From contig NZ_JACOFT010000002.1 in NCBI RefSeq assembly GCF_014699135.1, positions 558,001-622,000 of the forward strand: DNA of 64,000 nt. The letters run 5' to 3'. The position numbers were made by a program, and so were the translations under genes. Position 1 is the stretch's first letter. Every line of letters starts with the position of its first letter. Positions 1-15,831 of the stretch are shown piece by piece. The notes beneath the pieces were generated by a model. That model made no database searches and had not been told where the DNA came from. It saw only the letters and a program-made list of their open reading frames with translations. Source of the DNA: Cognatundibacterium aquatile. Lineage in GTDB: Bacteria > Pseudomonadota > Gammaproteobacteria > Burkholderiales > Burkholderiaceae_D.

Positions 1-1146
1 TCCTTGCTGAAACCCAATCCGGCTCTTGCGACCGAATCGGAAGCATTGGGTCTGGCAGTCAGAGAAGCGAATAATGAGCCTGAATTAAATCAGGTTGCCA
101 GCCGCCTGAAGCAACTTTGCTTTCAGATTGAACTACAAAGCGGCGACAGCGCTGAGCAACATGAATTACTGCTGCGTTTATTCGATTTGTTACTGACGAA
201 TATTCACGATCTGCTCGACAACGACAACTGGCTGCGCGGTCAGATTGAAGTCGTGCAAAATCTGATTTCCGGCCCGATAGATCATCGCGCACTGCAGGAA
301 GCAACCCGCAACCTGAAAGACGTCATCTACAAACAGGGCGTGCTTAAAAATAGTATTGATGAGTCGAATACCTCTGTCAAAAATATGATGGCGGCGTTTA
401 TCGACAGACTCAATGCAATGGCAACCAGTGCCGGCGTCTATCAGGACAAGATGGATCTCTACGCAAACAAAATCAGAAACACCAGCGATGCCAACGAAGT
501 CAGCAACATCATTGGCAACATTCTGGATGAAACCCGGGTCGTGCAATCAGAAACCCTGCGCTCACGGGACATCATCGTCGCCGCGCAGAAAGAAGTGACC
601 GAAGCTGCAGAAAAAATTAAAGGTCTCGAAGATAAGCTGGCACAAATGAGTGAACTGGTGCGCGAGGATCAGTTGACAGGCAGCCTGAACCGGCGCGGCA
701 TGGAAGATATTTTTGAGCGTGAAGCTGATCGCGCTGACCGGCGCAGCACGCCGCTTTGCATCGCCATGCTGGATCTGGATAACTTCAAAAAACTCAATGA
801 TACTCACGGCCACAACGCCGGTGACGAAGCGCTGGTGCATCTGGTGCGGGTAGTAAAACAAACCTTGCGCTCCATTGACGTCATCGCCCGCTGGGGCGGT
901 GAAGAATTCATCATTATCATGCCAGAGACCGGCTTAGAAGAAGCAGCCCAGGCGATGGTCAGAGTGCAGCGCGAACTGACCAAGCATTTCTTCACTGCAG
1001 ATGAACAACGCCTGTTTATCACGTTCAGCGCCGGCGTCGCCCTTCGTATGCCGCACGAGGCTCAGGAAACGCTGATCAAACGTGCTGACAAGGCGATGTA
1101 TGAAGCAAAACAATCAGGGAAAAATCGGGTGGTCAAAGCAAACTGA
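1..1146 (+). CDS. Diguanylate cyclase with C-terminal GGDEF domain (5' end may lie outside window)
   Basis: Makes cyclic di-GMP from two GTP. The C-terminal part (about residues 220-380) is a GGDEF domain with active-site GGEEF at residues 298-302 and a product-inhibition I-site R-S-I-D at 289-292, both counted from the TTG at position 4, so an active, feedback-inhibited enzyme is likely. The N-terminal ~180 residues are helical, with a coiled-coil-like stretch (about 185-225) before the GGDEF domain. I do not recognise the sensory domain and see no membrane segment. The frame is open to the window edge and the only visible start is that TTG, so the true start may be upstream. A strong terminator follows. 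Domain call is seen directly; the input signal is unknown. Confidence 0.9.
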   Translation, partial: SLLKPNPALATESEALGLAVREANNEPELNQVASRLKQLCFQIELQSGDSAEQHELLLRLFDLLLTNIHDLLDNDNWLRGQIEVVQNLISGPIDHRALQEATRNLKDVIYKQGVLKNSIDESNTSVKNMMAAFIDRLNAMATSAGVYQDKMDLYANKIRNTSDANEVSNIIGNILDETRVVQSETLRSRDIIVAAQKEVTEAAEKIKGLEDKLAQMSELVREDQLTGSLNRRGMEDIFEREADRADRRSTPLCIAMLDLDNFKKLNDTHGHNAGDEALVHLVRVVKQTLRSIDVIARWGGEEFIIIMPETGLEEAAQAMVRVQRELTKHFFTADEQRLFITFSAGVALRMPHEAQETLIKRADKAMYEAKQSGKNRVVKAN

Positions 1147-1172
1147 TACTGATACGCATAAACGAACGAAAC

Positions 1173-1201
1173 AAAAAGGCCGCGATATCGCGGCCTTTTT
1201 T
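1173..1201 (+). terminator. Rho-independent terminator after the diguanylate cyclase gene
   Basis: An 11-base palindromic GC-rich core around GCGATATCGC is flanked by an A-run on the left and a T-run on the right. It sits 27 bases after the GGDEF stop, between convergent genes, and the symmetric A/T flanks would let it work in both directions. Confidence 0.85.
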
Positions 1202-1269
1202 GTATTCATCATATCACTCAGCGGAACAACCCCCCCCTGTTTGTGAGCGCCGCTGCTTTGTGCATCACA

Positions 1270-2019
1270 TTAAGCAATCCGCTTCAAGAAGCCATCCGGT
1301 GCGACCGTGATTTGCAATTTATGTTGCATCGCCTTGTCGATCTCAAACTCAGGATGTGTTTGCAAATATTGACGCACTGCTGTTTTTGGGCTATTTCCCG
1401 GCTGCCATGGGCGGCTGTCGAACACATCTGCCGGAACATCTTCGACAAAGGTATCAAACACTACACAGTAGCTGTCTTTGCTGACCAAAGGTGCATACGC
1501 TTCGAGTTCGGCCAGGACGTGTTCATGGGTGTGATTCGAATCGAGAAAAACGATCACTTTTTGCTTATCTTTGGCGGCAGCACGTACTTGCGCGACAATT
1601 TCCGGTGCCACGCTTGAACCTTGCAGCATCGTGATGCGTTTCGACATCGGGTGCTCCAGTATCGCCTGCTTATTGTGTTCGCGAATATCGATATCAATGC
1701 CCAGAACGCGTGCATCGGGGTTGCCGCCACATGCAGCAATCAGCTCCAGCATAGACGCAGAAAAAATGATGGAGCCGCCATGCGCAATACCTGTCTCAAT
1801 GACCAGATCAGGCTGCACCGTCCACATCAGTTCCTGCATCGCCAGTATGTCGATGGGATTCTGGATGATAGGACGTCCCAGCCACGAAAAATTATATACA
1901 TACTGTTTGCGCATGCTCTGCTCCAGCCAGTCGCGGGACTGCGCCTGAAACGCATGGTCTTGCCCAAGTTGTTCTATGCGCGCTGCGCGTTCGGCTTCAA
2001 ATTGCTGAATAGGGTTCAT
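1270..2019 (-). CDS. CmcI-like (cephalosporin hydroxylase family) protein, probable sugar methyltransferase
   Basis: A 249-residue class I SAM-methyltransferase-like fold related to the CmcI/cephalosporin hydroxylase and rhamnosyl O-methyltransferase group. The cofactor-site motif VIETGIAHGGS and the acidic LGIDIDIRE stretch are visible, followed by FLDSNHTHEHV typical of the family. Despite the family name, members in polysaccharide loci are usually thought to methylate sugars. The ATG at 2019 is chosen because it overlaps the upstream SDR stop as ATGA and gives the family N-terminus MNPIQQFE. It is the last gene of the leftward sugar cluster and faces the diguanylate cyclase gene. Sugar O-methylation is inferred from context; the substrate is unknown. 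Confidence 0.75.
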   Translation of the reverse strand: MNPIQQFEAERAARIEQLGQDHAFQAQSRDWLEQSMRKQYVYNFSWLGRPIIQNPIDILAMQELMWTVQPDLVIETGIAHGGSIIFSASMLELIAACGGNPDARVLGIDIDIREHNKQAILEHPMSKRITMLQGSSVAPEIVAQVRAAAKDKQKVIVFLDSNHTHEHVLAELEAYAPLVSKDSYCVVFDTFVEDVPADVFDSRPWQPGNSPKTAVRQYLQTHPEFEIDKAMQHKLQITVAPDGFLKRIA

Positions 2020-2840
2020 GGTGTCTCGCAATAGTGTGAGTAAAGGGTAGGCAAATCCGTTGCCAGTTCGTGGTGAGACGCGCCGCAAAGCGCATGTAAT
2101 TTTGCAACGTTCATGTTGGGAAACAAGATATCTGGCGCATTGTTTTGAAATTTGCAGCGTACTCCTTGCCTCTGTAAGATGCTGGCGATTTCGGCATTTG
2201 ACACATTGCAGCCGCTGGCCAGATTATAAATTCCTGCTTCGCCGTGTTGTGCAATGATGGGCAGACAGCGCACCACATCCTGTACCGCGATGTAATCTTT
2301 TTGCGATTGCGGCGAACTGCGGAAGACAACACATTTGTCTTTGGCTGCTGATGTCAGCACTTCGGACAAAAAATTCTGCGTTGGCATATGTAATCCATAG
2401 ACATTCGATAAGCGCACGATCCGGACATCGCGCTGACTATTCAGACACAAGCTTTCGCCCATCAGCTTGGAAATGTTATACAGATCGCCGGAAACGTGGG
2501 AGCGTACCTGTAACGCCGCCCCCTCATCCGTCGTGCTTGCCCCGGCATATACCCGCGTACTGGATAAGTAAGTCAAGCTCAGAAAAGAAGCCTGTTGCAA
2601 TACGTTCGACAACAATGCGACATGCGCTTCCACAGTGTCATACGGCCGCTGACGAAAATCTGCCGTCAGACCAGCGCAGTAAAAGACGTGTCCGAGATCG
2701 CGTTGAAACAAGCTCACATCATCGCGCAACGGCACATCGCAGGTCCAGCCAAGACTGCGCAATTGCGCCTGCAAATGCCGCCCGACAAATCCATGACCGC
2801 CAATCAGAGTGGCATGCATCGCTGCGGTCGGCACGCTCAT
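2016..2840 (-). CDS. NAD-dependent epimerase/dehydratase (extended SDR) of nucleotide-sugar type
   Basis: A 274-residue extended short-chain dehydrogenase. The nucleotide-binding glycine motif GGHGFVG is at residues 14-20 and the catalytic Tyr/Lys pair in YNISK at 121-125, preceded by the SST active-site serine region (TYLSSTRVY). Such enzymes reduce, epimerise or dehydrate nucleotide sugars in the cytoplasm. Here a plausible role is 4-keto reduction, finishing the sugar begun by RfbF/RfbG. Both ends overlap neighbours by ATGA, so translation is coupled to the acyltransferase upstream and the CmcI-like gene downstream; this supports the ATG at 2840. The exact reaction cannot be read from sequence. 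Confidence 0.8.
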   Translation of the reverse strand: MSVPTAAMHATLIGGHGFVGRHLQAQLRSLGWTCDVPLRDDVSLFQRDLGHVFYCAGLTADFRQRPYDTVEAHVALLSNVLQQASFLSLTYLSSTRVYAGASTTDEGAALQVRSHVSGDLYNISKLMGESLCLNSQRDVRIVRLSNVYGLHMPTQNFLSEVLTSAAKDKCVVFRSSPQSQKDYIAVQDVVRCLPIIAQHGEAGIYNLASGCNVSNAEIASILQRQGVRCKFQNNAPDILFPNMNVAKLHALCGASHHELATDLPTLYSHYCETP

Positions 2841-3325
2841 TCACGCCACCCGACCCGGCGTAAAGGAACGCCGACATTAATCGAAAAGGCCGGCACCTCA
2901 GAGCGCACGACAGAACCCGCGCCAATGACACAACCCTGCCGCAGCACAGCGCCATCAAGAATCACGCAATTAGCACCGATCCAGACATCATCTTCAATCA
3001 CAATACCGCCCTTGCTTGGCAAGAAACCCTGCTGATTGATCCGTCGGCTTTTATCCTGATACGCATGATTGACGGGGGCAAAAGTACAGTTTGCCGCAAT
3101 CGCCACATCGTTGCCGATGCGAATGCCATTGCCTGTGTAGAGCACGCAACCGGAATTAATCGTGGTGCGCTCTCCGATCACGACATCACCGCTGCCGCCC
3201 GCAGGTTTGAATTTGACAAAGCTATCGATACTGGACAACGCACCGATAACGATGCGGGTGCCACGCACAGAATCTTCAATATCTGCCAGCTGGGAAATAC
3301 GCGCATCGGGATGAATCTCGATCAC
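2837..3325 (-). CDS. Left-handed beta-helix (hexapeptide repeat) acyltransferase, WbbJ/maltose acetyltransferase type
   Basis: A 162-residue LbH acyltransferase, probably moving an acetyl or other acyl group from CoA to a sugar. Hexapeptide repeats are visible as runs such as IRIGNDVAIAANCTF and IEDDVWIGANCVILDGAV, with the family histidine in NHAYQDKS. I choose a GTG start at 3325 rather than the further-upstream ATG at 3385. AAAGGAG lies six bases before the GTG, and this leaves an 11-base gap after the methyltransferase stop instead of a 49-base overlap. The stop overlaps the SDR start by ATGA. In context it likely decorates the sugar made by this cluster. Confidence 0.82.
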   Translation of the reverse strand: MIEIHPDARISQLADIEDSVRGTRIVIGALSSIDSFVKFKPAGGSGDVVIGERTTINSGCVLYTGNGIRIGNDVAIAANCTFAPVNHAYQDKSRRINQQGFLPSKGGIVIEDDVWIGANCVILDGAVLRQGCVIGAGSVVRSEVPAFSINVGVPLRRVGWRE

Positions 3326-3336
3326 AATAAACTCCT

Positions 3337-4563
3337 TTACAGAAGATGCAATTGTGGAATAGCGACGACAAAACGGGCATTCCATTCTTTGACGGCAGCC
3401 AGATCATGCATGATTTCTTCCTGCAAATTCCACGGCAAAATCAGAATTCTGTCAGGTTTGTCGGCCAGCAAATGCGCCAGACTGACAATCGGAATCCGGC
3501 TACCGGGAAGAAACTTACCCTGCTTGTGCGGATTAATATCCACCACATAAGGTAATAAGTCAGGCCGGATGCCGGAAAAATTCAGCAAGGTGTTTCCTTT
3601 GGCAGCAGCACCGTAGGCAGCAACGCACAGATTCTGGCGTTTGCAATCGAGCAGGAACTCCAACAAATCAAATTTCGCCTGCTCAGCCCTGCTTTGCACA
3701 TCACGGTAAAACGGCAGCGCATTCATACCGGCATCACGTTCTTTCGCCAGAATATCGCCAACGCCAGGCTGCACGGCTCTGGCTTTTACATCGGCACGTT
3801 GCGCCAGCACACGCAAACTGCCGCCATGTGTAGGCCACTCCTGCACATCAATGATCTGCAGACCATTGCGCTCGAATATCGTTTGCACCGCATGCAAAGA
3901 CAAATACGAATAATGCTCGTGATACGCGGTATCAAACTGATTTTGCTGCACCATGTTGAGCAGATGCGGAAACTCAAAACTAGCAACACCTGCGGGTTTT
4001 AACAACAGTGCAAATCCTGCGACAAAGTCATTAATATCAGGCACATGTGCCAGCACATTGTTGGCCACGGTCAGATCTGCCGCCTGCCCTTGCACGACCA
4101 GTTCCGCAGCAAGCTCACACCCGAAAAAGCGCTCAACTACCGGAATGCATTTGGCTCGCGCAGCATTGGCGGTGCTCTGCGTAGGCTCAATACCCAGACA
4201 GGGAATGCCTGCCGCCTGAACGTATTGCAACAGATAGCCATCATTCGCGGCAACTTCCACCACCAGACTCTGGGAATCAAGCGCCAGTTGCGCGCGCATG
4301 GTCGTGACAAATTGTTCGGCGTGACGCAACCAACTCGACGAACATGAGCTGAAATAAGCATAGTCGGCATCAAACAGATTTTCACGTCCGGTAAAATCCA
4401 GCGTCTGTACCAGCCAGCATGCATCGCACACCATCAGTGTCAATGGCAGCCAGACTTCAGCCTGATGCAAGGCTTCCGCAGTCAGGTAAGCATTCGACGG
4501 CGGCGCGCTCCCCAGATCCAGAAAAGGCTGTGTCAGAGCCTGACCACAATGCCGACATTTCAT
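3337..4563 (-). CDS. SAM-dependent sugar C-methyltransferase (TylC3/NovU-like)
   Basis: A 408-residue enzyme of the three-domain nucleotide-sugar C-methyltransferase family. The N-terminal zinc-binding domain has paired cysteines (C3/C6 and C46/C49). The central SAM domain carries VEVAANDG near residue 103 and NNVLAHVPD. The C-terminal domain has the AYGAAAKG motif near residue 318. Family members add a methyl branch next to the keto group of a 4-keto-6-deoxy nucleotide sugar, here presumably the RfbG product. The start overlaps the epimerase stop (ATGA at 4563-4560). The methylated carbon (C3 or C5) cannot be read from sequence; C3 is usual. Confidence 0.85.
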   Translation of the reverse strand: MKCRHCGQALTQPFLDLGSAPPSNAYLTAEALHQAEVWLPLTLMVCDACWLVQTLDFTGRENLFDADYAYFSSCSSSWLRHAEQFVTTMRAQLALDSQSLVVEVAANDGYLLQYVQAAGIPCLGIEPTQSTANAARAKCIPVVERFFGCELAAELVVQGQAADLTVANNVLAHVPDINDFVAGFALLLKPAGVASFEFPHLLNMVQQNQFDTAYHEHYSYLSLHAVQTIFERNGLQIIDVQEWPTHGGSLRVLAQRADVKARAVQPGVGDILAKERDAGMNALPFYRDVQSRAEQAKFDLLEFLLDCKRQNLCVAAYGAAAKGNTLLNFSGIRPDLLPYVVDINPHKQGKFLPGSRIPIVSLAHLLADKPDRILILPWNLQEEIMHDLAAVKEWNARFVVAIPQLHLL

Positions 4564-5123
4564 ACGCTCACTCCCTCAAAATCATCATCCAGCAACAGCC
4601 ACTGCCGGTCTTTGTCAGACATCGCCGTCACCGGCAAAGGCCAGCCTATCGCCAGCCGCTCGTCAAACACATTCAAGCCCATTTCCGCCGTCGGCTGATA
4701 GGCGTGACTATGGCAATACAACATTTCCACATGATCTGTGAGTGTCTGAAAACCATGCGCAAACCCTTGTGGTATCAGGAATGAGCGCTTATTCTCGGCA
4801 GACAGCACTTCGGCATGCCATTGCAAAAACGTAGGGGAATCTTTACGCAGATCGACGGCGACATCCCAGACCGCGCCTTGCAGACAGGTAATCAGTTTCA
4901 TTTCAGCGTGCGGAGGCAATTGCAAATGCAAGCCGCGCACACTGCCCTTTTCCAGCGTCTGTGTGTGATTCACTTGCGCGACACCCTGCGTCCAACCGAA
5001 TTCCACCAGCTCTTCGGCGCAAAACAGGCGCTGAAAATAGCCGCGCGCATCCGCCAGCGGCCGACGCTGCAAGAGCGACAAACCGATGATCGGTGTCGTC
5101 AACAGTTCAAATCGTTGTGCCAT
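4560..5123 (-). CDS. rfbC: dTDP-4-dehydrorhamnose 3,5-epimerase-like cupin (RmlC/RfbC family)
   Basis: A 187-residue RmlC-family cupin that epimerises 4-keto-6-deoxy nucleotide sugars at C3 and/or C5. The catalytic His region SVRGLH (His66), the substrate Lys (Lys76), IPQGFAHGF and the FDERLAIGWP segment (153-162) are all visible. It sits with CDP-sugar genes rather than rmlA/B/D, so it may act on CDP- instead of dTDP-linked sugar and may be a mono-epimerase. It overlaps the C-methyltransferase by ATGA, and the unusual 212-base gap lies upstream. The family is clear; substrate and stereochemistry are inferred. Confidence 0.85.
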   Translation of the reverse strand: MAQRFELLTTPIIGLSLLQRRPLADARGYFQRLFCAEELVEFGWTQGVAQVNHTQTLEKGSVRGLHLQLPPHAEMKLITCLQGAVWDVAVDLRKDSPTFLQWHAEVLSAENKRSFLIPQGFAHGFQTLTDHVEMLYCHSHAYQPTAEMGLNVFDERLAIGWPLPVTAMSDKDRQWLLLDDDFEGVSV

Positions 5124-5335
5124 ACATTTTTATCTTCATCAGCCCGACATTCACTATCCTGATTTGGCGTTATCGCTGCCTGTTTTCATATACTCCCCCC
5201 ACTTTTGAGAAATTTCCCTCTCATCTCCTTGAAAACAAAGGAGCTTAAAATATACCCGGGGGAGTATATAGAAGCCATTTTCCTGCTTTTTTCCTCTTTC
5301 TACTTACCTTTGCACCGGATTTTCTGGCAGCGTCC
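5124..5335 (-). promoter_or_regulatory. Structured AT-rich gap inside the sugar cluster (nested inverted repeats)
   Basis: This 212-base gap separates rfbG from rfbC in an otherwise overlapping gene string. A perfect 12-base inverted repeat, ATATACTCCCCC at 5188-5199 and its complement at 5258-5269, encloses a second stem (CTCCTT at 5225-5230, AAGGAG at 5238-5243). Two Shine-Dalgarno-like sites (AAGGAG and GGGGGGAG on the minus strand) lie within or beside the stems. Two tiny coupled open frames exist here (see findings). It could be a leader or attenuator, a processing site, or a remnant of a lost gene; I cannot tell which. Confidence 0.45.
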
Positions 5336-6436
5336 TTATTCTGTACCGAGTAAAAATGCGTCCAGATCGCGCTCGCACAAATCGCTGGCACTCACGCCTT
5401 GCTCAAAATCGCGATACCAGCACATCGTTCGGCGCACCGCGCTCTGCAAATCCCAGCGTGCGCGTATGCCCAGTTCACACCGAGCCTTGCTGACATCCAG
5501 CGCCAGCAAACCTGCTTCATGCGGACCAATGATGTCGTGAGCGAAATCGACCTCTCCGCCACCATAAGCGCCCTGCGCCAGTTCAACAACTTCACGCACG
5601 GTGGCAACTTCGTCCGGCCCAAAATTCCAGGCTTCGCCCAGCCCCGGCAAATGGTAAGCCCGTTGCGCCAGGGTCAGATAAGCCGAGACGGGCTCCAGTA
5701 CATGCTGCCACGGCCGCACCGACTCTGGCCTACGAATCTGCAGACGTTCATGCCTTTGCCATGCACGCACTGCATCCGGCAACAAGCGATCTTCCGACCA
5801 GTCACCGCCACCGATCACATTACCCGCTCTGGCGACCGCAACCGTCACGCCCTGCTCTGCCAGAAATGCCGAGCGATAACCAGCGATTACTAATTCAGAA
5901 GCAGCTTTACTCGCGCTGTACGGATCATGGCCGCCCAACTCTGCTGTCTCTGGATACGGCGTCAGTAACTCGCGGTTACGATAGACTTTATCGGTCGTCA
6001 CCATCAGCGCCACGCGAACGCTGTCGACGCCGCGCAAAGCATCCAGCACGTTGGCGGTGCCCATCACATTACTGGAGAAAGTATCGAGCGGGTCTTTATA
6101 ACTTGGCCGCACCAGCGCCTGCGCCGCCAGATGCAAAACGATTTCCGGCTGACTTTCGGCCACAATCTGACGCACCAGCGCAGCATCGCGGATATCACCG
6201 ATATGACTTTGCATGCGCCCGGCCAATCCCAGCGCATCGAATAAATCCGGCGAGGTACGCGGTGCCAGCGCCAGTCCAGTCACCGTCGCGCCCATACGCA
6301 GCAACCAGAATGCCAGCCATGCGCCCTTAAAACCGGTGTGCCCGGTCAGCAAGACCCGCCGCCCCTGCCAGAAGCTGGGTTCAGGTGCAGGAAATGCGCT
6401 GATTGCCCCAGGACTGACTACGCTGGTATTTACCAT
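5336..6436 (-). CDS. rfbG: CDP-glucose 4,6-dehydratase
   Basis: Converts CDP-glucose to CDP-4-keto-6-deoxyglucose, the branch point of CDP-deoxysugar pathways. A 366-residue extended SDR with TGHTGFKG at residues 31-38, the active-site VTTDKVY, YSASK at 173-177 and the [11 protein letters not shown] block typical of RfbG. I choose the ATG at 6436, which overlaps the rfbF stop by seven bases (ATGGTAA). A longer frame from 6466 would overlap by 37 bases. No rfbH (3-dehydrase) follows, unlike Salmonella/Yersinia abequose and paratose loci, so the C3 hydroxyl is probably kept. Confidence 0.93.
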
Positions 6437-7200
6437 GTTCGCCACGGCGCCTGCCCTGATTGCCACAAATCTTCCAACAGATTTTTCTCGCGCAGCGTAT
6501 CCATGGGCTGCCAGAAACCAGCGTGTTCGTAGGCCATGAGTTGCTGCTGTTGCGCTAATCTGGCCAAGGGTTCCGCTTCCCAGCTGACGCTGTCGTCACC
6601 AATAAAATCGAGCACTTTGGGAGACAGCACAAAATAACCACCATTAATCCAGCCGCCATCGCCGCGAGGTTTTTCCGTAAAACCGGCGACCTGATCGCCG
6701 TCACGCTCCAGCGCACCGTAGCGCCCCGGTGGTAATACCGCCGTGACAGTTGCGAGCTTGCCGTGATTTTTATGAAATGCGATTGAGGCAGCGATATCGA
6801 GGTCAGACACACCATCGCCATAAGTAAAGCAAAATGCTTCCTCGTCTTGTACATAGCGCGCCACACGTTTGAGCCGCCCGCCTGTCATCGTGTCTTCGCC
6901 GGTATCCACCAGCGTGACCTTCCAGGGTTCGGCATGTCTTTCGTGCACTTCCATGCGATTGTGCTGCATATCGAAGGTGACGTCCGACATGTGCAAAAAG
7001 TAGTTCGCAAAATACTCTTTGATCAGATAGCCTTTATAGCCGCAGCAGATCACAAATTCATTCACCCCATGTGCCGAATAGCTCTTCATGATGTGCCACA
7101 AAATCGGATGGCCGCCGATTTCTATCATCGGCTTCGGCTTCAGATGGGTTTCTTCTGATATCCGCGTTCCCAGACCACCGGCCAGAATCACTGCTTTCAT
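6430..7200 (-). CDS. rfbF: Glucose-1-phosphate cytidylyltransferase
   Basis: Makes CDP-glucose from CTP and glucose-1-phosphate, the first committed step to CDP-deoxysugars. A 256-residue nucleotidyltransferase with the N-terminal [11 protein letters not shown] signature (from residue 8), [10 protein letters not shown], and [10 protein letters not shown] metal-binding and sugar-site segments. The ATG at 7200 is chosen because it overlaps the glycosyltransferase stop as ATGA and gives the canonical MKAVILAGG start. Directly coupled to rfbG downstream. Confidence 0.95.
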
Positions 7201-9401
7201 TGCGCATTCTCCTTGCAGTAAATCTCCCACATGCCGCGATAGGCTTTTTCAACATCGCGGGCAAAACCTGGCTCATCCATCAATGGAGAGGCTTCCATCT
7301 CGGCGCGCAGCGTCTGCCGTAAATGCACAAGGCCATCAACATCATGGGCGAGGATCAGCGCTTTCTGCGCATATTCCATTTCGGTTTGTGCCACCCATTC
7401 GTCGCGGCTCATCCCCCTTAATACGCTGGCACCAATTCGTCCGACGGATGGACGATCAGCCAGCGTAATGAAAGGAATACCCATATAAATACTCTCCAGC
7501 AGCGTCGTGCCGGAATTATGCGGAAAACAATCGAGGCCGATATCAATTTGCTTCAAGACTTCCCATGATGGGCTGGTAAAACCGATCTCCAACCTTGAAC
7601 GGTCGATACCATATTGCATGAAACGCGAAGCCATTTCATCCTGCACTTTGACGTCTTTAAAGTCGCCGCTATTAATAATCAGGCGGGAATTCGGCATCGC
7701 GTCCAGTATCGCTGACCACACCTTCACAACCTTATGATTGATACGGACTGAGCGCGACAGGCTACCAAAAGTAATCACGCCCGTTTCCAGCACAGGCGGT
7801 GGCACCAGCTCCGCTTTACGTACATCCGGACGATAGGTATACGCTGGGCCATCCAGACACCAGACTTTTTCAGAAAACAGGTGAGCGCAGTTATCAGTAA
7901 CCGTAGCTTTGTCCGTCAGGTAATAATCAATCGCGGTCAAACCCGTGGTGTAGCCGTATTCCAGCCAATGCAGCGAAACCGGCGCAGGTTTGCGCGCAAA
8001 GACACCCAGTCGGTTACTGTTGGTGTGCCCCGCAACATCAATCAACACATCAATACCATCTGCGCGGATACGTTCTGCCAGTTCTGCATCGGTCATTTCG
8101 CGGGTGTAGATCCAGTGATCAACCGACTTTTTGTAATATTCCGTTGTTTCATCTTCAAACGGCGGATTCGCATACGCATAAACTTCGACCTGACTCTTAT
8201 CGTGCTTTTCCAGCAAAGGCAGCAGAAAATATTTACAGACCTGGTTATAAAACGCCTGCGCGACATACCCGACCTTCAAACGTTTATTTGGATCGCGTAC
8301 GTTATCAAAAGGACGCCAGAAGACTTTATTTGGCAAACCAAAACGCTGATCGAAATCCTGATATGCGCCAAAAATGGCTTCTGCGGGTAAATCGGGGTGG
8401 TAATTTAAGCAGAACAGCAAATTGCTGAATATTTTGCGATTAAACGAAGACTGCGAGTCTTTTTTAAATGACAGCGCCCGCATATAGGCCTCAATCGCAG
8501 GATCGAGATGATTAGCCTCGCGCAGGGCATCGCCGTAGCCACCCCAGAATTCCGGGATATTCGCGCAACGATCCATCGCTTCATTACCGCATTCAATCGC
8601 ACGCTGCACCTCGCCATTCTGTCTCAGGGCATCGATCAGGTTCGGATACACCTGAATCAGATCAGGCTGCAATTCCAGTGCAGTATAAAAACACTTGATG
8701 CCCTCGCTGTATTGATTATTCTCACGATATGCCAGGCCTAAATTATTGTGAACATAAGCAAGACCGGGATTAAGACGTACCGCAATCTGCAAAGTATCTA
8801 CGGCAGCCTGCGTCTGCCCTATCATGCGCAAGGCATTGCCAAGATTATTCTGTGCCACCACCATCGCCGGATCAATTGAGACGGCTTTCCGTAAATAAGT
8901 AGCTGCCTCGGCACAACGCTCCAAAGATATCAGCGCGTTACCAATATTCGCCAGCACATGAGGATTGTTCGGCAATAGCGCCACGGCGTGTTGAAGCGCT
9001 TCGTAGGCTTCGGGATATTTCCCCTGTTCCAGGCGGCTGATGCCAAGGTAATCCCAGGCAATACCATCTTTTGGATTAAATCCGGTCAGCCACAGGCTGG
9101 CAATTTCCATTTGTTCATATGAACGACTCTGTATATACCGATTAAGAACCTGATAATAAGCATGCTTATCTGCGTTGAATTGCTGCGCGCCCGAAAACGC
9201 TTTTTGTAAAAAAAGTAGCGATTCCTCATTCAAGCCGCCTTCAAAAGCTAATTTGGCGAGAAAGTAATTGGCATCCTGATGCAAAGGATATTGCTGAACA
9301 ATCCGGAGACAGAGTGCTTTCGCTTTTTCTGCCTGATTAGCCTTATACAAAGCCTTTGCTTCTTTAAATGCATTTCCGGGGTGCAAGCCGACTTTACTCA
9401 T
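7197..9401 (-). CDS. TPR-SPINDLY family glycosyltransferase (O-GlcNAc-transferase-like, GT41), candidate flagellin glycosyltransferase
   Basis: A 734-residue cytoplasmic protein. About residues 1-330 are tandem TPR repeats (blocks such as [16 protein letters not shown] and [20 protein letters not shown]). About 370-734 form the GT41 catalytic region, including HLFSEKVW and the donor-binding segment [10 protein letters not shown] followed by [14 protein letters not shown] (628-662). This architecture modifies Ser/Thr of proteins, with TPRs binding the target. It heads the leftward sugar cluster and is divergent from flagellin, so flagellin is the prime candidate target. The donor is probably the nucleotide sugar made by the genes it is coupled to. 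The fold is certain; target and donor are inferred. Confidence 0.85.
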
Positions 9402-9747
9402 TATCTATTCTCTTTAAGGTGGCAAAGACCAAAAACATGACCAAAAAATAATTCCCGAGGACATTATGATCATCGAAATTCATTTTAAAGGGAAAAAATA
9501 AATGCTTAAGCCCGAATAAAGGGGTGAAAGATATTTAAATTAAGCCCTCAAGAAATTTTAAAAGCTGTCGTTGAGCGGAATATCGCGAAAAACTTAAGCA
9601 AAAAAAATAGTATTTATTTGCGGAAACTAGCTAAAAGTTTTTGATTCCCGTCCGTAACCCTTTACAACGGCGGTGCAACAGTCAACAGACAGACCGAAGT
9701 TTGAGGTTTTAACGCCGAATTTAATAACTTAGGTAAGGAGTATCAAA
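9402..9747. promoter_or_regulatory. Divergent intergenic region between the glycosyltransferase gene and fliC
   Basis: This 346-base AT-rich region holds the upstream sequences of both the leftward glycosylation cluster and the flagellin gene. It contains no plausible ORF. The right part carries a sigma-28-like promoter and the fliC ribosome-binding site (GGTAAGGAG at about 9732-9740, seven bases before the ATG). A second gene-free AT-rich stretch (9402-9600) presumably holds the leftward promoter, but I see no clear consensus. Confidence 0.6.
9632..9657 (+). promoter_or_regulatory. Probable sigma-28 (FliA) promoter of fliC
   Basis: TAAAAGTTT at 9632-9640 resembles the flagellar -35 element TAAAGTTT. 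TCCGTAA at 9651-9657 resembles the -10 element GCCGATAA, with spacing about one base shorter than consensus. Position about 90 bases before the flagellin start fits a class 3 flagellar promoter. The match is imperfect. Confidence 0.55.
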
Positions 9748-11235
9748 ATGGCTTCATATATCAATACCAATATTGCATCCATGAATGCACAACGCAGCCT
9801 GACTACATCTCAAGGCTCTCTGCAAACATCCATGCAACGTCTGTCATCCGGTCTGCGTATTAACAGCGCAAAAGATGACTCCGCTGGTCTCGCAATTTCT
9901 CAACGTATGACTTCGCAGCTGAATGGTCAAAACCAAGCTGCACGTAATGCGAATGACGGTATCTCTCTGGCTCAGACAGCTGAGGGCGATCTGCAACAAA
10001 TCGGTTCCAACTTACAACGTATTCGTGATCTGGCAGTTCAGGCAGCCAACGGCTCTAACAGTGCATCAGACCGCGCATCCCTGAATAACGAAGCCAGCCA
10101 GTTGATCTCTGAAATCAACCGTGTTGCAAGTTCTTCTAACTTTAACGGCGTGAATCTGCTTGACGGTAGCTTTGCAAACCAAACATTCCAGGTTGGTGCA
10201 AACGGTAGCTCAAACGATCAGATCAGTATTTCAGCAATCGCCAGTGCAAAATCGTCCTCTCTTGGTGTTGGCTCAACATCCAGCTACAAAGCAACTGTAG
10301 CAGGTGCAGGTGCTGTAACAACGACAGCTCTGGCATCTGGCGATTTGTCTATCAATGGTTACCAAGTCGGCGCATCTGCTAGTGATGGCGTATCCTTCTC
10401 TAACGCAACTGGCAGTGGTATCGCTAAAGCCGCAGCAATTAACGCAATCAGTGGTCAAACTGGTGTGACAGCAACAGTTGGCTCCACAGCAGTGGCCGGT
10501 ACAGCATCGACAAGCGCAACAGCAATCGCTTCTGGCGACATCACAATTAACGGTGTCAATCTGGGTGCATTGAGCGCCTCGACTTCCGGCGCTCAACGTG
10601 GCGCACAAGTTGCTGCTGCTGTTAATGCGATCAGCTCACAAACTGGCGTATCAGCTACATTTGATACAACAACTGGTGCTGTTGCCCTGGCAGCTGCTGA
10701 TGGACGTAATATCACAGTTACAGCAAGTACTAATGCAGCTGCAGCTGCAGCCAATACAGGTATCACCGTATCTGCAACTGGTGCGACAGACATTGCTACA
10801 TCAACACTTTCCCTGTCTTCCACAAGCTCTGCTGGTATTACTCTGGCAAATGGTACAGGTACAGGTTTGACAGCTGCAAACTTGACAGGTGGCTTCACTT
10901 CAGCAGCAGTCACAGTCGGGGCAGGTGTATCCTCTCTGAATCTGAGTACGGCGGCAGGGGCGCAGTCAGCTCTGGCAACCATCGATTCGGCGATTGCATC
11001 GGTCAATAGTTCACGCGCTTCTTTGGGTGCGATACAAAACCGCTTCACTTCTGCTGTCAACAGCTTGCAAACATCACAAGAAAACTTGGCATCAGCACGT
11101 AGCCGTATTCAAGACTCCGATTTTGCTTCGGAAACAGCAAATATGACTCGTTCTCAAGTGTTGCAACAAGCTGGTACTGCAATTTTGGCTCAAGCTAACT
11201 CATTACCTAACGGTGTTCTCGCACTGCTGCGTTAA
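9748..11235 (+). CDS. fliC: Flagellin (filament subunit)
   Basis: The 495-residue structural subunit of the flagellar filament. The conserved N-terminal D0/D1 region (about residues 1-165, containing RLSSGLRINSAKDDSAGLAI) and C-terminal D1/D0 region (about 400-495, ending NSLPNGVLALLR) are both intact. The middle is a Ser/Thr/Ala/Gly-rich variable domain with two Flagellin_IN-like repeats about 65 residues apart (starting near residues 196 and 261, ASGDLSING / ASGDITING). Its surface-exposed Ser/Thr content makes it a good acceptor for O-glycans, in line with the adjacent glycosyltransferase. It is preceded by a sigma-28-like promoter and strong RBS and followed by a long hairpin. Secreted through the flagellar export channel, so no signal peptide. 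Confidence 0.97.
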   Translation: MASYINTNIASMNAQRSLTTSQGSLQTSMQRLSSGLRINSAKDDSAGLAISQRMTSQLNGQNQAARNANDGISLAQTAEGDLQQIGSNLQRIRDLAVQAANGSNSASDRASLNNEASQLISEINRVASSSNFNGVNLLDGSFANQTFQVGANGSSNDQISISAIASAKSSSLGVGSTSSYKATVAGAGAVTTTALASGDLSINGYQVGASASDGVSFSNATGSGIAKAAAINAISGQTGVTATVGSTAVAGTASTSATAIASGDITINGVNLGALSASTSGAQRGAQVAAAVNAISSQTGVSATFDTTTGAVALAAADGRNITVTASTNAAAAAANTGITVSATGATDIATSTLSLSSTSSAGITLANGTGTGLTAANLTGGFTSAAVTVGAGVSSLNLSTAAGAQSALATIDSAIASVNSSRASLGAIQNRFTSAVNSLQTSQENLASARSRIQDSDFASETANMTRSQVLQQAGTAILAQANSLPNGVLALLR

Positions 11236-11267
11236 TCAATAGCTTCAGTTTTCTATTGATGTAGATA

Positions 11268-11297
11268 ATTCCCCTGATCAGTTATGATCAGGGGAAT
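11268..11297 (+). terminator. Perfect 13-bp hairpin between fliC and flaG
   Basis: ATTCCCCTGATCA and its exact complement are separated by the loop GTTA, 32 bases after the fliC stop. No T-run follows, so it may be a 3' mRNA-stabilising hairpin or partial attenuator rather than a full terminator. It would let fliC transcript exceed that of the downstream genes. Confidence 0.6.
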
Positions 11298-11318
11298 CTA
11301 ACTTTGAAGGAAATGATC

Positions 11319-11693
11319 ATGGACATCCCATCGATTGGCAACCCGCCTCAATCGGGGCAATTGATCAGTGACAAAACTGCCGTCACCAACGTACGGTCAG
11401 CCCCTCCTGCTAATAACATTAGCGCACCCACGGCAACTGCAGCCGACAATTCTGAGAATAAGAAATTTGACAGCACCGAAGTTAATAAAGCAATCGCTCA
11501 TATTAACGATGCGCTGCAGGCTCGCTCACAGGATTTACGCTTCAGCGTCGATACTGACAGTAAGCGTGTTGTTGTCAAAATTATTGATCAGCAAACAAAT
11601 CAGGTGTTACGCCAGATTCCAACGGAAGAGGCACTTGAAATATCTAAATCCTTAGATAAATTAAAAGGATTACTCATTAAGAACGAAGCTTAA
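11319..11693 (+). CDS. flaG: FlaG family flagellar protein
   Basis: A 124-residue protein with a disordered N-terminus and a conserved C-terminal domain (about residues 55-124): FSVDTDSKRVVVKIIDQQTN, then RQIPTEEALEISK. FlaG affects filament length in other bacteria and typically lies between flagellin and fliD, as here. Three starts are possible (TTG 11304, ATG 11313, ATG 11319). AAGGA at 11307-11311 is best spaced for 11319. Confidence 0.88.
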   Translation: MDIPSIGNPPQSGQLISDKTAVTNVRSAPPANNISAPTATAADNSENKKFDSTEVNKAIAHINDALQARSQDLRFSVDTDSKRVVVKIIDQQTNQVLRQIPTEEALEISKSLDKLKGLLIKNEA

Positions 11694-11795
11694 TCGGTAA
11701 CGATCTTTTTAAAATAGCAGGTAAAACCCCTTCTTTCATCTCAATTGAACAAGAATCAGATTTGATATAGTAAGGACCTCAAAAGGAGAATTATT

Positions 11796-13811
11796 GTGGC
11801 CATACAATCCACCGGTGTAGGTTCTGGACTTCCCGTTGACACCATTGTCAGCAAGCTCATGGCCATTGAGAGTCTGCCGCTAGCATCTATTCAGAAAAAA
11901 CAAACAAGTTATCAGGCAGATGTCACTGCATTAGGCGCTTTAAGTGGTTCTGTCAGCTCCTTCCAGTCTTCCCTGATTGCACTGAGCAGTGCGTCCACCT
12001 TTAAGACGCTCGCAGCAACAGCAAGTGATACAGCAGTTGCCTCAGTCACAGCAAGCAGCACCGCCAGTGTTGGCAATTACAACGTCAATGTGACGCAACT
12101 TGCACAGTCTCAGACTTTATCCAGCGCAGGACAAATCAATACTACAGCCTCCATCGGCAGTGGTGCCAGCACAACGTTAAGCTTTCAGTTCGGCAGTATT
12201 TCAGGCGGCACTCAGACTGGCGGAATATATAGTGGAGCAACGTTTACGCAAGATGCCAGCCAGGCAACAGGCACAGTAACGATTGATAGCACAAATAATT
12301 CGCTGCAAGGCATCCGGGATGCCATCAATAACGCAAAAATCGGCGTGAATGCATCCATCGTCGGTGACGGCAGTGCGACTCCTTATCATTTAGTGCTGAA
12401 TTCGACCTCAACAGGTGCAACATCAAGTTTGAAAATCAGTGTTGCCGGGGATGCGAATCTGCAAAATCTGCTTTCTTATGATCCAGCCGGCACACAGAAC
12501 TTCAAAGAAGTGACTACTGGTCAGAATGCCAACCTGACCGTCAACGGCATTGCCGTATCCAGCGCAAGCAATAAGGTCGGAACGGCCATTCAGGGTGTGA
12601 CAATCAGCGCCCAGAAGATAGGCACCACGTCGATTGCAGTCAATACCAATACATCGGCAGTACAAAATAGCATTAACTCTTTTGTCTCTGCGTACAACAG
12701 TCTGAACAGCACGATTGCACAACTGACTTCATATAATCCAACGACAAAAGCTGCGGGGGCGTTACTTGGCGACCCAACTGTCCAGGCAATTCAAAATCAG
12801 GTACGAAACACTTTGTCAACCGCAGTAAATGGTCTGGGTGGAGGCTTCACCAGTCTGGCGCAGATCGGCATCAGCTTTCAGAAAGACGGATCGCTGGCAG
12901 TTGACTCCAGCAAACTGCAGACCGCATTAACAAATAATTTTAATGATGTCGGCGGATTGTTTTCGGCAATGGGCAAAACAACAGATAGTCTGACCAGTTT
13001 GTCCGGCTCCACGGCCGCAACACAGCCTGGCGACTATGCAATCAAAGTAACGCAGATTGCCACGCAAGGTGTGTTAACCGGTGATGTCAACTTGAATTCG
13101 GCATCAACTACGATTGCTGCGGGAACAAAAATTGATGTCAAAATTGACGGCCTCTCCGGCACAGTGAGTTTAGCGGCAGGAAACTACACCGCATCACAAC
13201 TCGCTTCGATGATACAGTCGTCTATCAATGGTACTGCCAGTTTCTCCAATGCAGGTGTCACGGTTACCACCTCAATTGACAGCAATGGCTTCTTGAATAT
13301 TACTTCGGGCAGTTTTGGTAGTGCATCCAATGTCAGCCTGACCAGCAATGCTGGCACGAGTGTCAGTGCATTGACTGGAACAGTCAACACGGGAACAACG
13401 GGTAAAAATGTCGCCGGTACATTAAACGGCGTCTCAGCTACAGGTTTAGGTCAAATATTGACTGGCGCATCCGGCTCACCTTCTGAAGGCTTGCAAATCT
13501 TAGTGAATGGCGGTGCAACGGGTGACCGCGGCAAAGTCAGTTTTTCTCAGGGTTACGCATACAAACTGAATAATCTTGTCACCAGTTTCCTTGGAACGAC
13601 AGGCACGATCAGTAGTGCAACAAAAGGTATTAACACGACATTAGCGTCACTACAGAAACAAACCGACGAGCTGAATGCGCGCTTGCTTAAAACTCAGAAC
13701 CGCCTTCAGGCGCAATATTCTGCTCTTGATTCCGTCATCTCGAAATTAAATGCAACTCAAAGCTTTTTAACTGCTCAGATTGGCATTCTGAACGGTTCAA
13801 CGAATAAGTAA
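11796..13811 (+). CDS. fliD: Flagellar filament cap protein (hook-associated protein 2)
   Basis: A 671-residue cap protein that sits at the filament tip and promotes flagellin folding and polymerisation. The FliD N-terminal domain starts with GVGSGLPVDTIVSKLM; the C-terminal coiled-coil region (KGINTTLASLQKQTDELNAR) and terminal heptad-rich helix are present. Between them are Flagellin_IN-like repeats. It is longer than many FliD proteins (~470 residues) because of an expanded Ser/Thr/Gly-rich middle. The start is GTG at 11796, seven bases after AAAAGGAG. Followed by fliS and fliT, its export chaperones. Confidence 0.95.
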   Translation: MAIQSTGVGSGLPVDTIVSKLMAIESLPLASIQKKQTSYQADVTALGALSGSVSSFQSSLIALSSASTFKTLAATASDTAVASVTASSTASVGNYNVNVTQLAQSQTLSSAGQINTTASIGSGASTTLSFQFGSISGGTQTGGIYSGATFTQDASQATGTVTIDSTNNSLQGIRDAINNAKIGVNASIVGDGSATPYHLVLNSTSTGATSSLKISVAGDANLQNLLSYDPAGTQNFKEVTTGQNANLTVNGIAVSSASNKVGTAIQGVTISAQKIGTTSIAVNTNTSAVQNSINSFVSAYNSLNSTIAQLTSYNPTTKAAGALLGDPTVQAIQNQVRNTLSTAVNGLGGGFTSLAQIGISFQKDGSLAVDSSKLQTALTNNFNDVGGLFSAMGKTTDSLTSLSGSTAATQPGDYAIKVTQIATQGVLTGDVNLNSASTTIAAGTKIDVKIDGLSGTVSLAAGNYTASQLASMIQSSINGTASFSNAGVTVTTSIDSNGFLNITSGSFGSASNVSLTSNAGTSVSALTGTVNTGTTGKNVAGTLNGVSATGLGQILTGASGSPSEGLQILVNGGATGDRGKVSFSQGYAYKLNNLVTSFLGTTGTISSATKGINTTLASLQKQTDELNARLLKTQNRLQAQYSALDSVISKLNATQSFLTAQIGILNGSTNK

Positions 13812-13849
13812 CAAGCAACTGATAATTTAGAAAACTCAAAGGACTAGCT

Positions 13850-14320
13850 ATGTTTGGCTCATCAAAATCCTATGGTGCAAGTGCATATACAAAAATTGGT
13901 GTGGAAACCGGCGTCATAGCTGCCAGCCCCCACAAACTGATCGTCATGTTATTCGATGGTGCGATCACAGCGATTGGAAATGCTTTACAGCAAATGCAAA
14001 AGGGAGAAATTGCAGCAAAAGGAAAATCAATTTCTCACGCCATTTCCATTATTGATAACGGCTTGCGTGCCAGCCTGGATAAGCGAGTCGGCGGTGAAAT
14101 TGCACTCAATCTGGATGCACTGTATGAATATATGAGCAGACAGCTATTGCTGGGAAATCTGAATAAAGATGAAGAAAAATTACTGGAAGTGCAAACTTTA
14201 TTACGTGATCTGAAACAAACATGGGAAACCATAGAACCCGCAGCGCAAGCACCAACGCAGCCGGCTATCAGCGAACACGATCCTTTACAACCACGACAAG
14301 TTCACGTTTTTGAGGCCTGA
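13850..14320 (+). CDS. fliS: Flagellin export chaperone FliS
   Basis: A 156-residue helical chaperone that binds the C-terminus of flagellin and prevents premature polymerisation. The family landmarks AYTKIGVETGVIAASPHKLIVML and the following FDGA are at the N-terminus, with EYMSRQLL in the third helix. A short Pro/Gln-rich tail extends beyond the usual ~130 residues. Lies between fliD and fliT as in most flagellated proteobacteria; the fliT ATG follows its stop by six bases. Confidence 0.95.
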   Translation: MFGSSKSYGASAYTKIGVETGVIAASPHKLIVMLFDGAITAIGNALQQMQKGEIAAKGKSISHAISIIDNGLRASLDKRVGGEIALNLDALYEYMSRQLLLGNLNKDEEKLLEVQTLLRDLKQTWETIEPAAQAPTQPAISEHDPLQPRQVHVFEA

Positions 14321-14326
14321 TTCATA

Positions 14327-14662
14327 ATGGAAAGCATAGAAATTATTAAGCTGTACGAGAATATTGCCGTACTCACTGATCAAATGTTGAATGCCGCCCG
14401 CAACCGCGACTGGGAACAATTGACGGAGCTGGAAAACGATTGCAGCTCAAAGGTTCAAAAAATTCGTGATAATGAGAGTCCGGCATTCTTACCTCCGGAA
14501 CTCAAAGAGCGAAAAATTCGTGTCATAAAAAAAATACTGGCTGACGATAAAGAAATTCGCGACATTACAGAACCGTGGATGGCTGAATTGTCTAATCTGA
14601 TGAAAGCGTCAAGTGCCGAACGCAAACTGAATCACACTTATGGAGCCGCAAGCTCGGCGTAA
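14327..14662 (+). CDS. fliT: Flagellar protein FliT (FliD export chaperone)
   Basis: A 111-residue all-helical protein with the FliT pattern YENIAVLTDQMLNAARNRDW at the N-terminus and a charged KIRVIKKILADDKEIR helix. FliT chaperones FliD, and in enterics also binds FlhDC and FliI. Sequence similarity in this family is low, so the call rests on size, helical pattern and position right after fliS. Confidence 0.85.
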   Translation: MESIEIIKLYENIAVLTDQMLNAARNRDWEQLTELENDCSSKVQKIRDNESPAFLPPELKERKIRVIKKILADDKEIRDITEPWMAELSNLMKASSAERKLNHTYGAASSA

Positions 14663-14667
14663 CCGAT

Positions 14668-15831
14668 ATGCCATACCGCCTCGATAATTCGATTACGACT
14701 GCCGATATCGAGGCGGCATCAGCGAGTTCGGGACTCCATTCGCTCAAGCAGGAAGTTGCCTCAAAACTTGCACAACTCGTTGTAGGTCAACAACTCAAAG
14801 GGGAAATCCTTACCCGACAAAAGGACGGCAGCTTTACTGTCCGGGTCGCTAATTTTAGCGTTCGCATGCAACTCCCGGAAGGCGTTAAGGAGGGAGACTC
14901 AGTCTCGTTGCGTTTAATTTCAACAGATCCGAAACCAACGTTTGCCTTAGAAAGCAAATCTCAAATCACAGAAAGCTTCATTGCCGGGCAAACCTACACA
15001 CCTGGCAAAAAAACGCTATCTGATTTTTCAGCTTCGCCTCAGGCAAGACTGGAAGATGCGGGCAAGTTAGCACAAATAAAAACAATTCCCCAATCCACGT
15101 CAGCCCTCCCCCATCTGGAGGCTGGCATTCAATCGGACAGCAGCGTTACTTTTTTAAGTACGGCCAGCAAACTGATTGGCACCATTCTGCAGTCTGGAGA
15201 TGGCAGTACCGAAGGCAACGCGATTGTCGGAAAAACTGCAATACTAAACTCGCAAGCCGATTTAAATAGCATCGAAAAAACGGCTGTATTATTAGAAAAA
15301 AAAATCAGCCAGAGTGGCCTCTTTTACGAATCTCACCTCGCAGAATGGGTGGATGGGAAAAAGAATTTAAGTGACTTACGAACAGAGCCCCAGGCTGTAC
15401 TTTCAGCACTAAGTCAGAATATTGTCAGCGAAGAAAGCAGTCTTACCTCTGGAAATAAAGAATTAATTCAACTCATTCAGCAACAGTTACGAACCTTGGA
15501 AAATCAAAGCCTGCGTTGGCAAGGCGAGCTTTTCCCAGGACAATATATGAAATGGGAAATCAAGAGAGATAAGCCTTCTCATCAAACCAGCGAATTTTCA
15601 CCTGACGACAATAATTACTGGCAAAGTACCGTCAAGTTTGATTTACCCTCTCTGGGCACAGTTTCAGCAACGTTTAATTTTCGTGCAAATCATTTAAGCT
15701 TAAATATCAATGCAGAAAATGAAGAGACTGTAAGCGCTCTTAAAACTCACGCTGGGCAACTATCGTCCGCCCTGTCCTCTTTAGACACGATTCTGGATAG
15801 CCTGAGTGTCAGAAAAAATGACAGTAAATAA
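14668..15831 (+). CDS. FliK-like flagellar protein (putative second hook-length-control-type protein)
   Basis: A 387-residue protein with a polar, low-complexity middle and a C-terminal domain (about residues 290-380) resembling the FliK/Flg_hook domain: LPSLGTVSATFNFRANHLSLNI, a pattern close to the LPDLG...V.....LNV segment of FliK. The N-terminus includes an OB-like stretch (LKGEILTRQKDGSFTVRV). It is distinct from the classical FliK encoded at 22778-24112. It overlaps an FlhB C-terminal-domain homologue, a pairing that recalls the FliK-FlhB export-switch interaction. Domain assignment is by eye; function is inferred. Confidence 0.65.
   Translation: MPYRLDNSITTADIEAASASSGLHSLKQEVASKLAQLVVGQQLKGEILTRQKDGSFTVRVANFSVRMQLPEGVKEGDSVSLRLISTDPKPTFALESKSQITESFIAGQTYTPGKKTLSDFSASPQARLEDAGKLAQIKTIPQSTSALPHLEAGIQSDSSVTFLSTASKLIGTILQSGDGSTEGNAIVGKTAILNSQADLNSIEKTAVLLEKKISQSGLFYESHLAEWVDGKKNLSDLRTEPQAVLSALSQNIVSEESSLTSGNKELIQLIQQQLRTLENQSLRWQGELFPGQYMKWEIKRDKPSHQTSEFSPDDNNYWQSTVKFDLPSLGTVSATFNFRANHLSLNINAENEETVSALKTHAGQLSSALSSLDTILDSLSVRKNDSK

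Follow-up and report, generated by a model that had tools for sequence, protein, structure and literature searches.

A candidate flagellin O-glycosylation cassette joining a TPR-GT41 transferase to CDP-sugar genes at fliC in Undibacterium

Which protein, and with which sugar, would be modified by a glycosyltransferase whose gene stands back to back with a flagellin gene and heads a series of nucleotide-sugar genes? This question is raised by a locus in 64,000 nucleotides of an Undibacterium genome, assembled as 17 contigs totalling 3.90 Mb, that whole stretch of analysed DNA being called the window here. Among records with a species name the closest is that of U. rivi FT147W, with a glycosyltransferase 98% identical to that of the window, in a search that may omit the window's own record. 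The locus is best explained, with a probability that we put at roughly 0.7, as a dedicated flagellin O-glycosylation cassette in which a cytoplasmic transferase of family GT41 with TPRs (TPR-GT41) would use a CDP-linked 3-C-methyl-6-deoxyhexose.

Gene content and predicted sugar pathway

The initial annotation of this DNA had described eight leftward sugar genes headed by a TPR/GT41 gene and back to back with fliC, and both the coordinates and the Pfam profiles confirm this description, each of the eight open reading frames and fliC receiving an assignment. FliC, the presumed acceptor, is encoded on the forward strand (9748..11235; PF00669 and PF00700), and the cassette genes follow leftward from it on the reverse strand. 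The first encodes the predicted TPR-GT41 protein O-glycosyltransferase, 734 aa long and of the R-type clade described below (7197..9401; PF13844 at 132.3 bits against a cutoff of 25, plus TPRs). It is followed by RfbF, a glucose-1-phosphate cytidylyltransferase (6430..7200; TIGR02623 at 472.3 bits, cutoff 300.25), and by RfbG, a CDP-glucose 4,6-dehydratase (5336..6436; TIGR02622 at 439.3 bits, cutoff 278.45), whose PDB matches 1rkx and 1wvg are both CDP-glucose 4,6-dehydratases. Next come an RmlC-like sugar 3,5- or 5-epimerase (4560..5123; PF00908 at 194.4 bits, with RmlC relatives in the PDB) and a sugar 3-C-methyltransferase (3337..4563; PF08421 and PF08484), for which all 10 PDB matches are sugar or D-mycarose 3-C-methyltransferases or TcaB9. 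The series ends with a hexapeptide-type acyltransferase (2837..3385; PF00132), an SDR that is a putative 4-ketoreductase (2016..2840; PF01370), for which no PDB match at 1e-5 was found, and a CmcI/rhamnosyl-O-methyltransferase-like sugar O-methyltransferase (1270..2022; PF04989 at 317.3 bits). Only RfbF and RfbG exceed an NCBIfam cutoff; the RmlC-like protein falls just under that of TIGR01221 (154.4 vs 155.75), and the other five are without a match over cutoff, the O-methyltransferase lying far below its equivalog cutoff (98 vs 400).

In the whole genome RfbF is the sole copy over cutoff, the glycosyltransferase the sole PF13844 protein and fliC the sole flagellin match. As had been stated, no Wzx, Wzy or ABC exporter gene was found among the eight cassette genes by Pfam or NCBIfam. 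The Maf profile PF01973 gave zero matches in the genome, a profile which may miss bacterial Maf since its control matches were in four archaea only. The middle of the flagellin contains 13% Ser and 16% Thr.

Judged from the curated families, RfbF and RfbG would make CDP-4-keto-6-deoxyglucose. The 3-C-methyltransferase would put a methyl branch on C3, the RmlC-like enzyme would invert C5 and the SDR would reduce the 4-keto group, this being the presumed order of the steps at C3, C5 and C4. The hexapeptide protein would add an acyl group and the CmcI-like enzyme an O-methyl group. Before FliC is exported, the cytoplasmic TPR-GT41 would transfer a single sugar from CDP to Ser, and perhaps Thr, in the exposed middle of this protein, a route for which a lipid carrier, flippase or polymerase would not be needed. 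What has been observed is gene content, linkage, clade, residue changes and co-variation; reaction order, sugar, acceptor residues and donor preference are inferred from them. The product may resemble the CDP-vinelose of Azotobacter.

A GT41 clade with an altered active site

The window glycosyltransferase belongs to an enzyme family that also glycosylates animal and plant proteins. It has the OGT/SPINDLY-type GT-B fold joined to TPRs, and its nearest solved relatives in sequence and fold include SPINDLY (SPY). Its N-terminal TPRs and C-terminal GT-B part are arranged as in flagellin O-glycosyltransferases of the FlmG kind. The canonical OGT/SPINDLY active site is not present: the catalytic Lys (SPY K665) is replaced by Arg (R553), the donor-size Tyr (SPY Y744) by His and SPY H495 by Gln. 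Sorting of 105 GT41 rows by the K665 site gave 48 with Arg (R-type) and 57 with Lys (K-type), at least four of the latter being duplicates; 12 rows (duplicates, the rows of genome G592, one misaligned row and SPY) and one untypeable row were left out of this count. The 48 Arg rows form one GT41 clade with full support in a tree of 102 rows, from which eight duplicates had been dropped along with eight other rows (the G592 protein and rows that were short or badly aligned).

At the donor-size site His was found in 46 and Gln in two of the 48 Arg rows, compared with Tyr or Phe in 44 of the 57 Lys rows. The R clade has Ser or Thr at SPY N661 and does not keep the base-stacking His (SPY H728), and its donor-pocket residues are unlike those of SPY in every one of the 48 rows. 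A GT41 clade in which Arg takes the place of the catalytic Lys, and His or Gln that of the donor-size Tyr, is new here, and we read the swaps as an adaptation to a CDP-linked, 3-C-branched 6-deoxyhexose.

In G592, an open reading frame of 1557 aa (L211:1050-5723) directly upstream of genes for RfbF, RfbG, the 3-C-methyltransferase and RmlC contains two GT41 domains, the first reading Asn...Lys and the second Ser...Arg. In the best tree the second domain does not group with the R clade. Independent origin by convergence is not claimed for it, since a forced single clade with the R rows was not rejected (p-AU 0.436).

Association of R-type GT41 with CDP-sugar genes

The genus was surveyed in 43 Undibacterium genomes, the window's own included, and RfbF at 82% identity or above was found in 31 of them. 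An R-type GT41 was present in all 31 genomes with this RfbF and was found in none of the 12 without; the typing comes from the cassette copy in 27 of the 31, from copies elsewhere in G019, G034 and G042, and in G018 only from a fragment of the glycosyltransferase that is 76% identical and short of the motif. Among the 12, one genome (G022) has an RfbF of 70% identity in another cluster, and G015 and G036 carry K-type GT41s, the latter having in addition one weak, untyped match of 31%.

Outside the genus, an order-wide search gave matches in 61 of 399 genomes, with R-type transferases in five loci among the best loci typed (L176-L203), a selection in which weaker R-type matches could be missed. 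Four of the five hold RfbF, RfbG and the 3-C-methyltransferase (L204, L205, L206 and L207; in L205 the methyltransferase is a fragment at the contig end), and in the fifth (L208) the contig ends just after the transferase gene. The R-type gene adjoins fliC in L204 and L207; the sugar genes stand in other orders, with no fliC in the stretch, in L205 and L206. None of 34 K-type loci fetched, themselves a selection of the matches, had RfbF, RfbG and the 3-C-methyltransferase in its stretch. When 369 genomes of the class were searched at E 1e-85, one more transferase match turned up (G296), which is K-type and unlinked to that genome's own CDP-sugar operon.

An exchangeable cassette between fliC and GGDEF

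The initial annotation had proposed a neighbourhood search for GT41 beside fliC in related genomes, and the cassette transferase was found to adjoin fliC in 27 of the 43 genomes, 26 being typed R by motif. In G042 the transferase on the fliC side is broken over two frames and untyped (L074:8764-10950), with further R-type copies in L151 and L155, and in G003 a short fliC-like piece lies between fliC and the transferase gene. Two genomes (G018, G025) have the transferase and sugar genes with fliC on another contig or on none, three (G015, G019, G034) have another cassette beside fliC, one with a K-type GT41, and four (G041, G036, G035, G007) show another arrangement or lack a flagellin match. 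In the seven others the slot is empty, fliC lying directly beside a GGDEF gene at a gap of 424-758 bp. The same GGDEF gene, at 1..1146 on the forward strand in the window, marks the opposite end of the slot in all 25 loci, window included, whose contig extends that far; in G020 and G017, the remaining two of the 27 cassette genomes, the contig ends first. Filled, empty and swapped slots at one place therefore document an exchangeable cassette at a fixed site.

The same gene order recurs through the genus more than by chance, and the genes between fliC and GGDEF in the R-type cassettes were identified by similarity or Pfam, apart from a few that are unassigned. In most loci the cassette tail consists of the acyltransferase and SDR genes, followed by the O-methyltransferase gene except in G001, G010, G012 and G037. 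A DegT aminotransferase and acetyltransferase-like genes take this place in G005, G026 and G029 (by Pfam) and in G017 (by similarity). The SDR is read as a probable 4-ketoreductase because DegT replaces it, both of which would act on a 4-keto sugar.

Co-variation of the transferase and the flagellin

The co-variation test used 21 of 24 loci, L064, L065 and L076 being excluded for a missing gene; the cassette loci L051, L059, L073 and L074 lay outside it. The distance between transferases follows that of the FliC middle with rho 0.60 for the TPR part and 0.62 for the catalytic part. The respective values are lower for the FliC core (0.32 and 0.34), GGDEF (0.30 and 0.31), RfbG (0.24 and 0.30) and the C-methyltransferase (0.24 and 0.25), and rho is 0.33 for FliD. 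Controlling for FliD leaves a partial value of 0.54-0.56 for the FliC middle, which was not reached in any of 300 permutations. The FliC middle and the C-methyltransferase are uncorrelated (-0.12).

Ser makes up 0.142 of the flagellin middle with the cassette (n=26), 0.102 with none (n=8) and 0.089 with a K-type transferase (n=4), and the Thr fractions are alike (0.175, 0.172 and 0.191, respectively). Nearest-relative pairs, in which partners were shared between pairs, agree with the Ser enrichment in 8/8 cases when paired by GGDEF (one more was not measurable) and in 10/10 when paired by FliD, one of these by 0.001 only.

The claim of direct transfer to the flagellin, rather than to a polysaccharide, is thus supported by the fixed linkage to fliC, the empty and swapped slots, the GT41 fold, the lack of export genes in the cassette, the sole PF13844 protein beside the sole flagellin, and the co-variation. 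Direct flagellin glycosylation may be called well supported by comparison.

Alternative explanations

The cassette could supply its sugar to O-antigen, capsule or exopolysaccharide, which we consider very improbable. Genes of the Wzx/Wzy type conserved beside the cluster in relatives, named at the outset as a sign of such a role, do not occur among the genes identified in the R-type cassettes of Undibacterium, in which all but a few of those between fliC and GGDEF could be assigned. It is the sugar operon with no GT41 in the stretch, in other bacteria, that has genes for Wzx-like or ABC transporters next to it, in three of four loci looked at (L127, L134 and L128; not L132); the sugar is therefore not flagellin-specific, and the GT41-fliC linkage is left untouched. 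A polysaccharide role is also favoured by plasmid p1 of Desulfolutivibrio sulfodismutans (L213), on which RfbF, RfbG, RmlC-like and 3-C-methyltransferase genes (66% identity) occur with GT2-type genes, and by a single Wzx-like gene (PF01943) elsewhere in the window genome, on a different contig. Plasmid records held relatives of the 3-C-methyltransferase in named species, and best identities of about 40% to the transferase domain. Transport or polymerase genes are nevertheless lacking among the eight, the linked transferase is a TPR-GT41 at fixed linkage to fliC, and its distance tracks the exposed flagellin domain. A different possibility is that the transferase uses a common donor such as UDP-GlcNAc on flagellin, the CDP-sugar being added on top or elsewhere by a transferase from outside the locus. 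This would agree with the GT41 donors known, UDP-GlcNAc, UDP-glucose or GDP-fucose (PMC9715652), and the single glycosyltransferase of the cassette would leave a second sugar to an enzyme encoded elsewhere. It is unlikely, as the R-type GT41 is tied to the CDP-sugar genes even where these are reordered and fliC is absent from the stretch (L205, L206), and the donor pocket differs from that of SPY throughout the clade.

Quite improbable, too, is that the transferase mainly acts on another protein (FliD, a pilin or an outer-surface protein) or, as an inactive protein, binds flagellin in a regulatory role. Paralogues in pilin-gene loci speak for another acceptor, and the catalytic Lys replaced by Arg, with SPY H495 replaced by Gln in the window, for inactivity. 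Against these stand the single PF13844 protein of the genome adjoining its only flagellin match, a transferase distance whose correlation is weaker with FliD than with the FliC middle (0.33 vs 0.60), and the whole sugar operon that stays with the transferase. Several observations weigh against a dedicated, active flagellin cassette all the same. Mutating the Lys of SPY at the site of the R-type Arg inactivates that enzyme (PMC9715652), so R-type activity could be lost. The 31 versus 12 genomes represent few independent events because the genomes are related, at most 11 candidates per genome were scored, and two of the 12 (G007, G040) are less than 70% complete. K-type transferases share the fliC slot with CDP-sugar genes, further off, in G019, G034 (L168, L169) and G026 (L218). 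Transferase distance also follows the adjoining RfbF to an intermediate degree (rho 0.50 and 0.56 for the TPR and catalytic parts); the TPR and catalytic parts track FliC alike, so recognition by the TPRs is not singled out; and fliC and the transferase gene are neighbours, so that shared recombination tracts could add to the correlation. The Ser enrichment is held as weak because the N-terminal flagellin region leans likewise, though less so (0.174 vs 0.140), and not just the exposed part. Finally, the sigma-28-like element directed toward the transferase gene, described below, also occurs at six of the seven empty sites.

Gene spacing, repeat element and promoter-like elements

The four-base overlaps put forward as a sign of joint expression were found at three junctions (transferase/RfbF, RmlC/3-C-methyltransferase and acyltransferase/SDR). 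Given the chosen ATG starts, RfbF/RfbG and SDR/O-methyltransferase overlap by seven bases, and between RfbG and RmlC there is a gap of 212 nt containing an inverted repeat, so that describing the genes as one tight operon goes slightly too far. The true start of the acyltransferase is probably about 20 codons downstream of that listed, given that the alignments to most relatives cover about 162 of 182 residues. The inverted-repeat element of the gap (5188..5269, no strand assigned) has ATATACTCCCCC arms, of which the genome holds 87 exact copies against 0 for the reversed control, some of them paired about 55-70 bp apart. The arm also occurs in relatives' loci L050, L057, L072 and L080. The repeat looks like an element of the REP/MITE type, and its core resembles a CsoR/RcnR-type operator. 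Rfam gave zero matches at gathering score in positions 1-16000.

A pattern scan of 29 intergenic regions with a sigma-28 consensus found a sigma-28-like element of fliC (9633..9657, forward strand) and another pointing toward the transferase gene (9573..9597, reverse strand). In the majority of the regions this second element lies at a distance of about 150 nt from fliC. Co-regulation through this second element was dropped, the element not being specific to the cassette, and its presence at empty sites makes it no evidence for the cassette.

Other GT41 copies

Sixteen R-type copies lie away from fliC, and the loci of six of these, in Undibacterium with larger genomes, also contain type IV pilin genes (L153 at 5564-8227, L154, L155, L156, L157 and L160). 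In L153 the R-type gene directly adjoins four type IV pilin genes. The pilin-side copies fit a putative clade of surface-subunit transferases sharing one sugar. We give even odds to the wider proposal that the R-type clade comprises the first protein O-glycosyltransferases with CDP-sugars, that the OGT/SPINDLY scaffold was re-tuned to a CDP-3-C-methyl-6-deoxyhexose by Lys to Arg, Tyr to His and a Trp close to the loop that binds the base, and that a single sugar supply at fliC serves several TPR-GT41s whose genes stand near those of their respective acceptors (flagellin, or pilins in larger-genome species). K-type GT41s were also seen with DegT and type IV pilin-like sequences (L122, L123, L124, L165, L166 and L167), and with WbqC in L122, L165 and L166.

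Comparison with known systems

Few sugar donors of GT41 enzymes are known, and the work on SPY points to one pocket residue in donor choice (PMC9715652). A natural clade in which the catalytic Lys and this pocket residue are swapped, and which is tied to a nameable sugar pathway, makes the donor question directly testable. Across the genus the slot at fliC is found filled, empty or swapped, which amounts to a natural experiment on the predicted flagellin glycosylation, and the two sugar endings, with SDR or DegT aminotransferase, should give different flagellin mass shifts. Titles and abstract openings of the open-licence literature held nothing on GT41 with CDP-sugar genes or on flagellin glycosylation in Undibacterium.

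The closest likeness in architecture is to FlmG of Caulobacter crescentus, described as a soluble, cytoplasmic protein whose N-terminal TPR part binds flagellin and whose C-terminal GT-B transferase O-glycosylates it (PMC7591256). For the window enzyme flagellin is the predicted acceptor. FlmG needs pseudaminic acid (PMC7591256), whereas the genes linked to the window transferase suggest a C-methyl-branched CDP-6-deoxyhexose, and unlike flmG the window gene is divergent to fliC. SPY is a GT41 O-fucosyltransferase that moves fucose, likewise a 6-deoxyhexose, but it uses GDP-fucose and acts on plant proteins (PMC9715652), and its K665, N661 and Y744 correspond to Arg, Ser/Thr and His/Gln in the R clade, which also lacks its H728. 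The OGT-like protein of Thermobaculum terrenum was solved as the K341M mutant (PDB 5djs), with the Met aligned to window R553, so the natural protein has Lys at this site; O-GlcNAc activity is reported not to have been found for it (PMC9715652). The flagellin glycosylation islands of Burkholderia and Pseudomonas similarly place sugar and transferase genes near flagellar genes and vary by strain, but the glycans named for them are of rhamnose/viosamine type or incompletely assigned masses, and the word CDP is absent from the review (PMC3958885). Pathways to 3-C-methyl-6-deoxyhexoses (mycarose and relatives, and a proposal for virenose) employ the same class of 3-C-methyltransferase on an NDP-4-keto-6-deoxyhexose; those discussed in the source start from TDP or GDP sugars and serve antibiotics or lipopolysaccharide (PMC3539893), whereas in the window the same enzyme class is joined to CDP-sugar genes and a predicted protein transferase.

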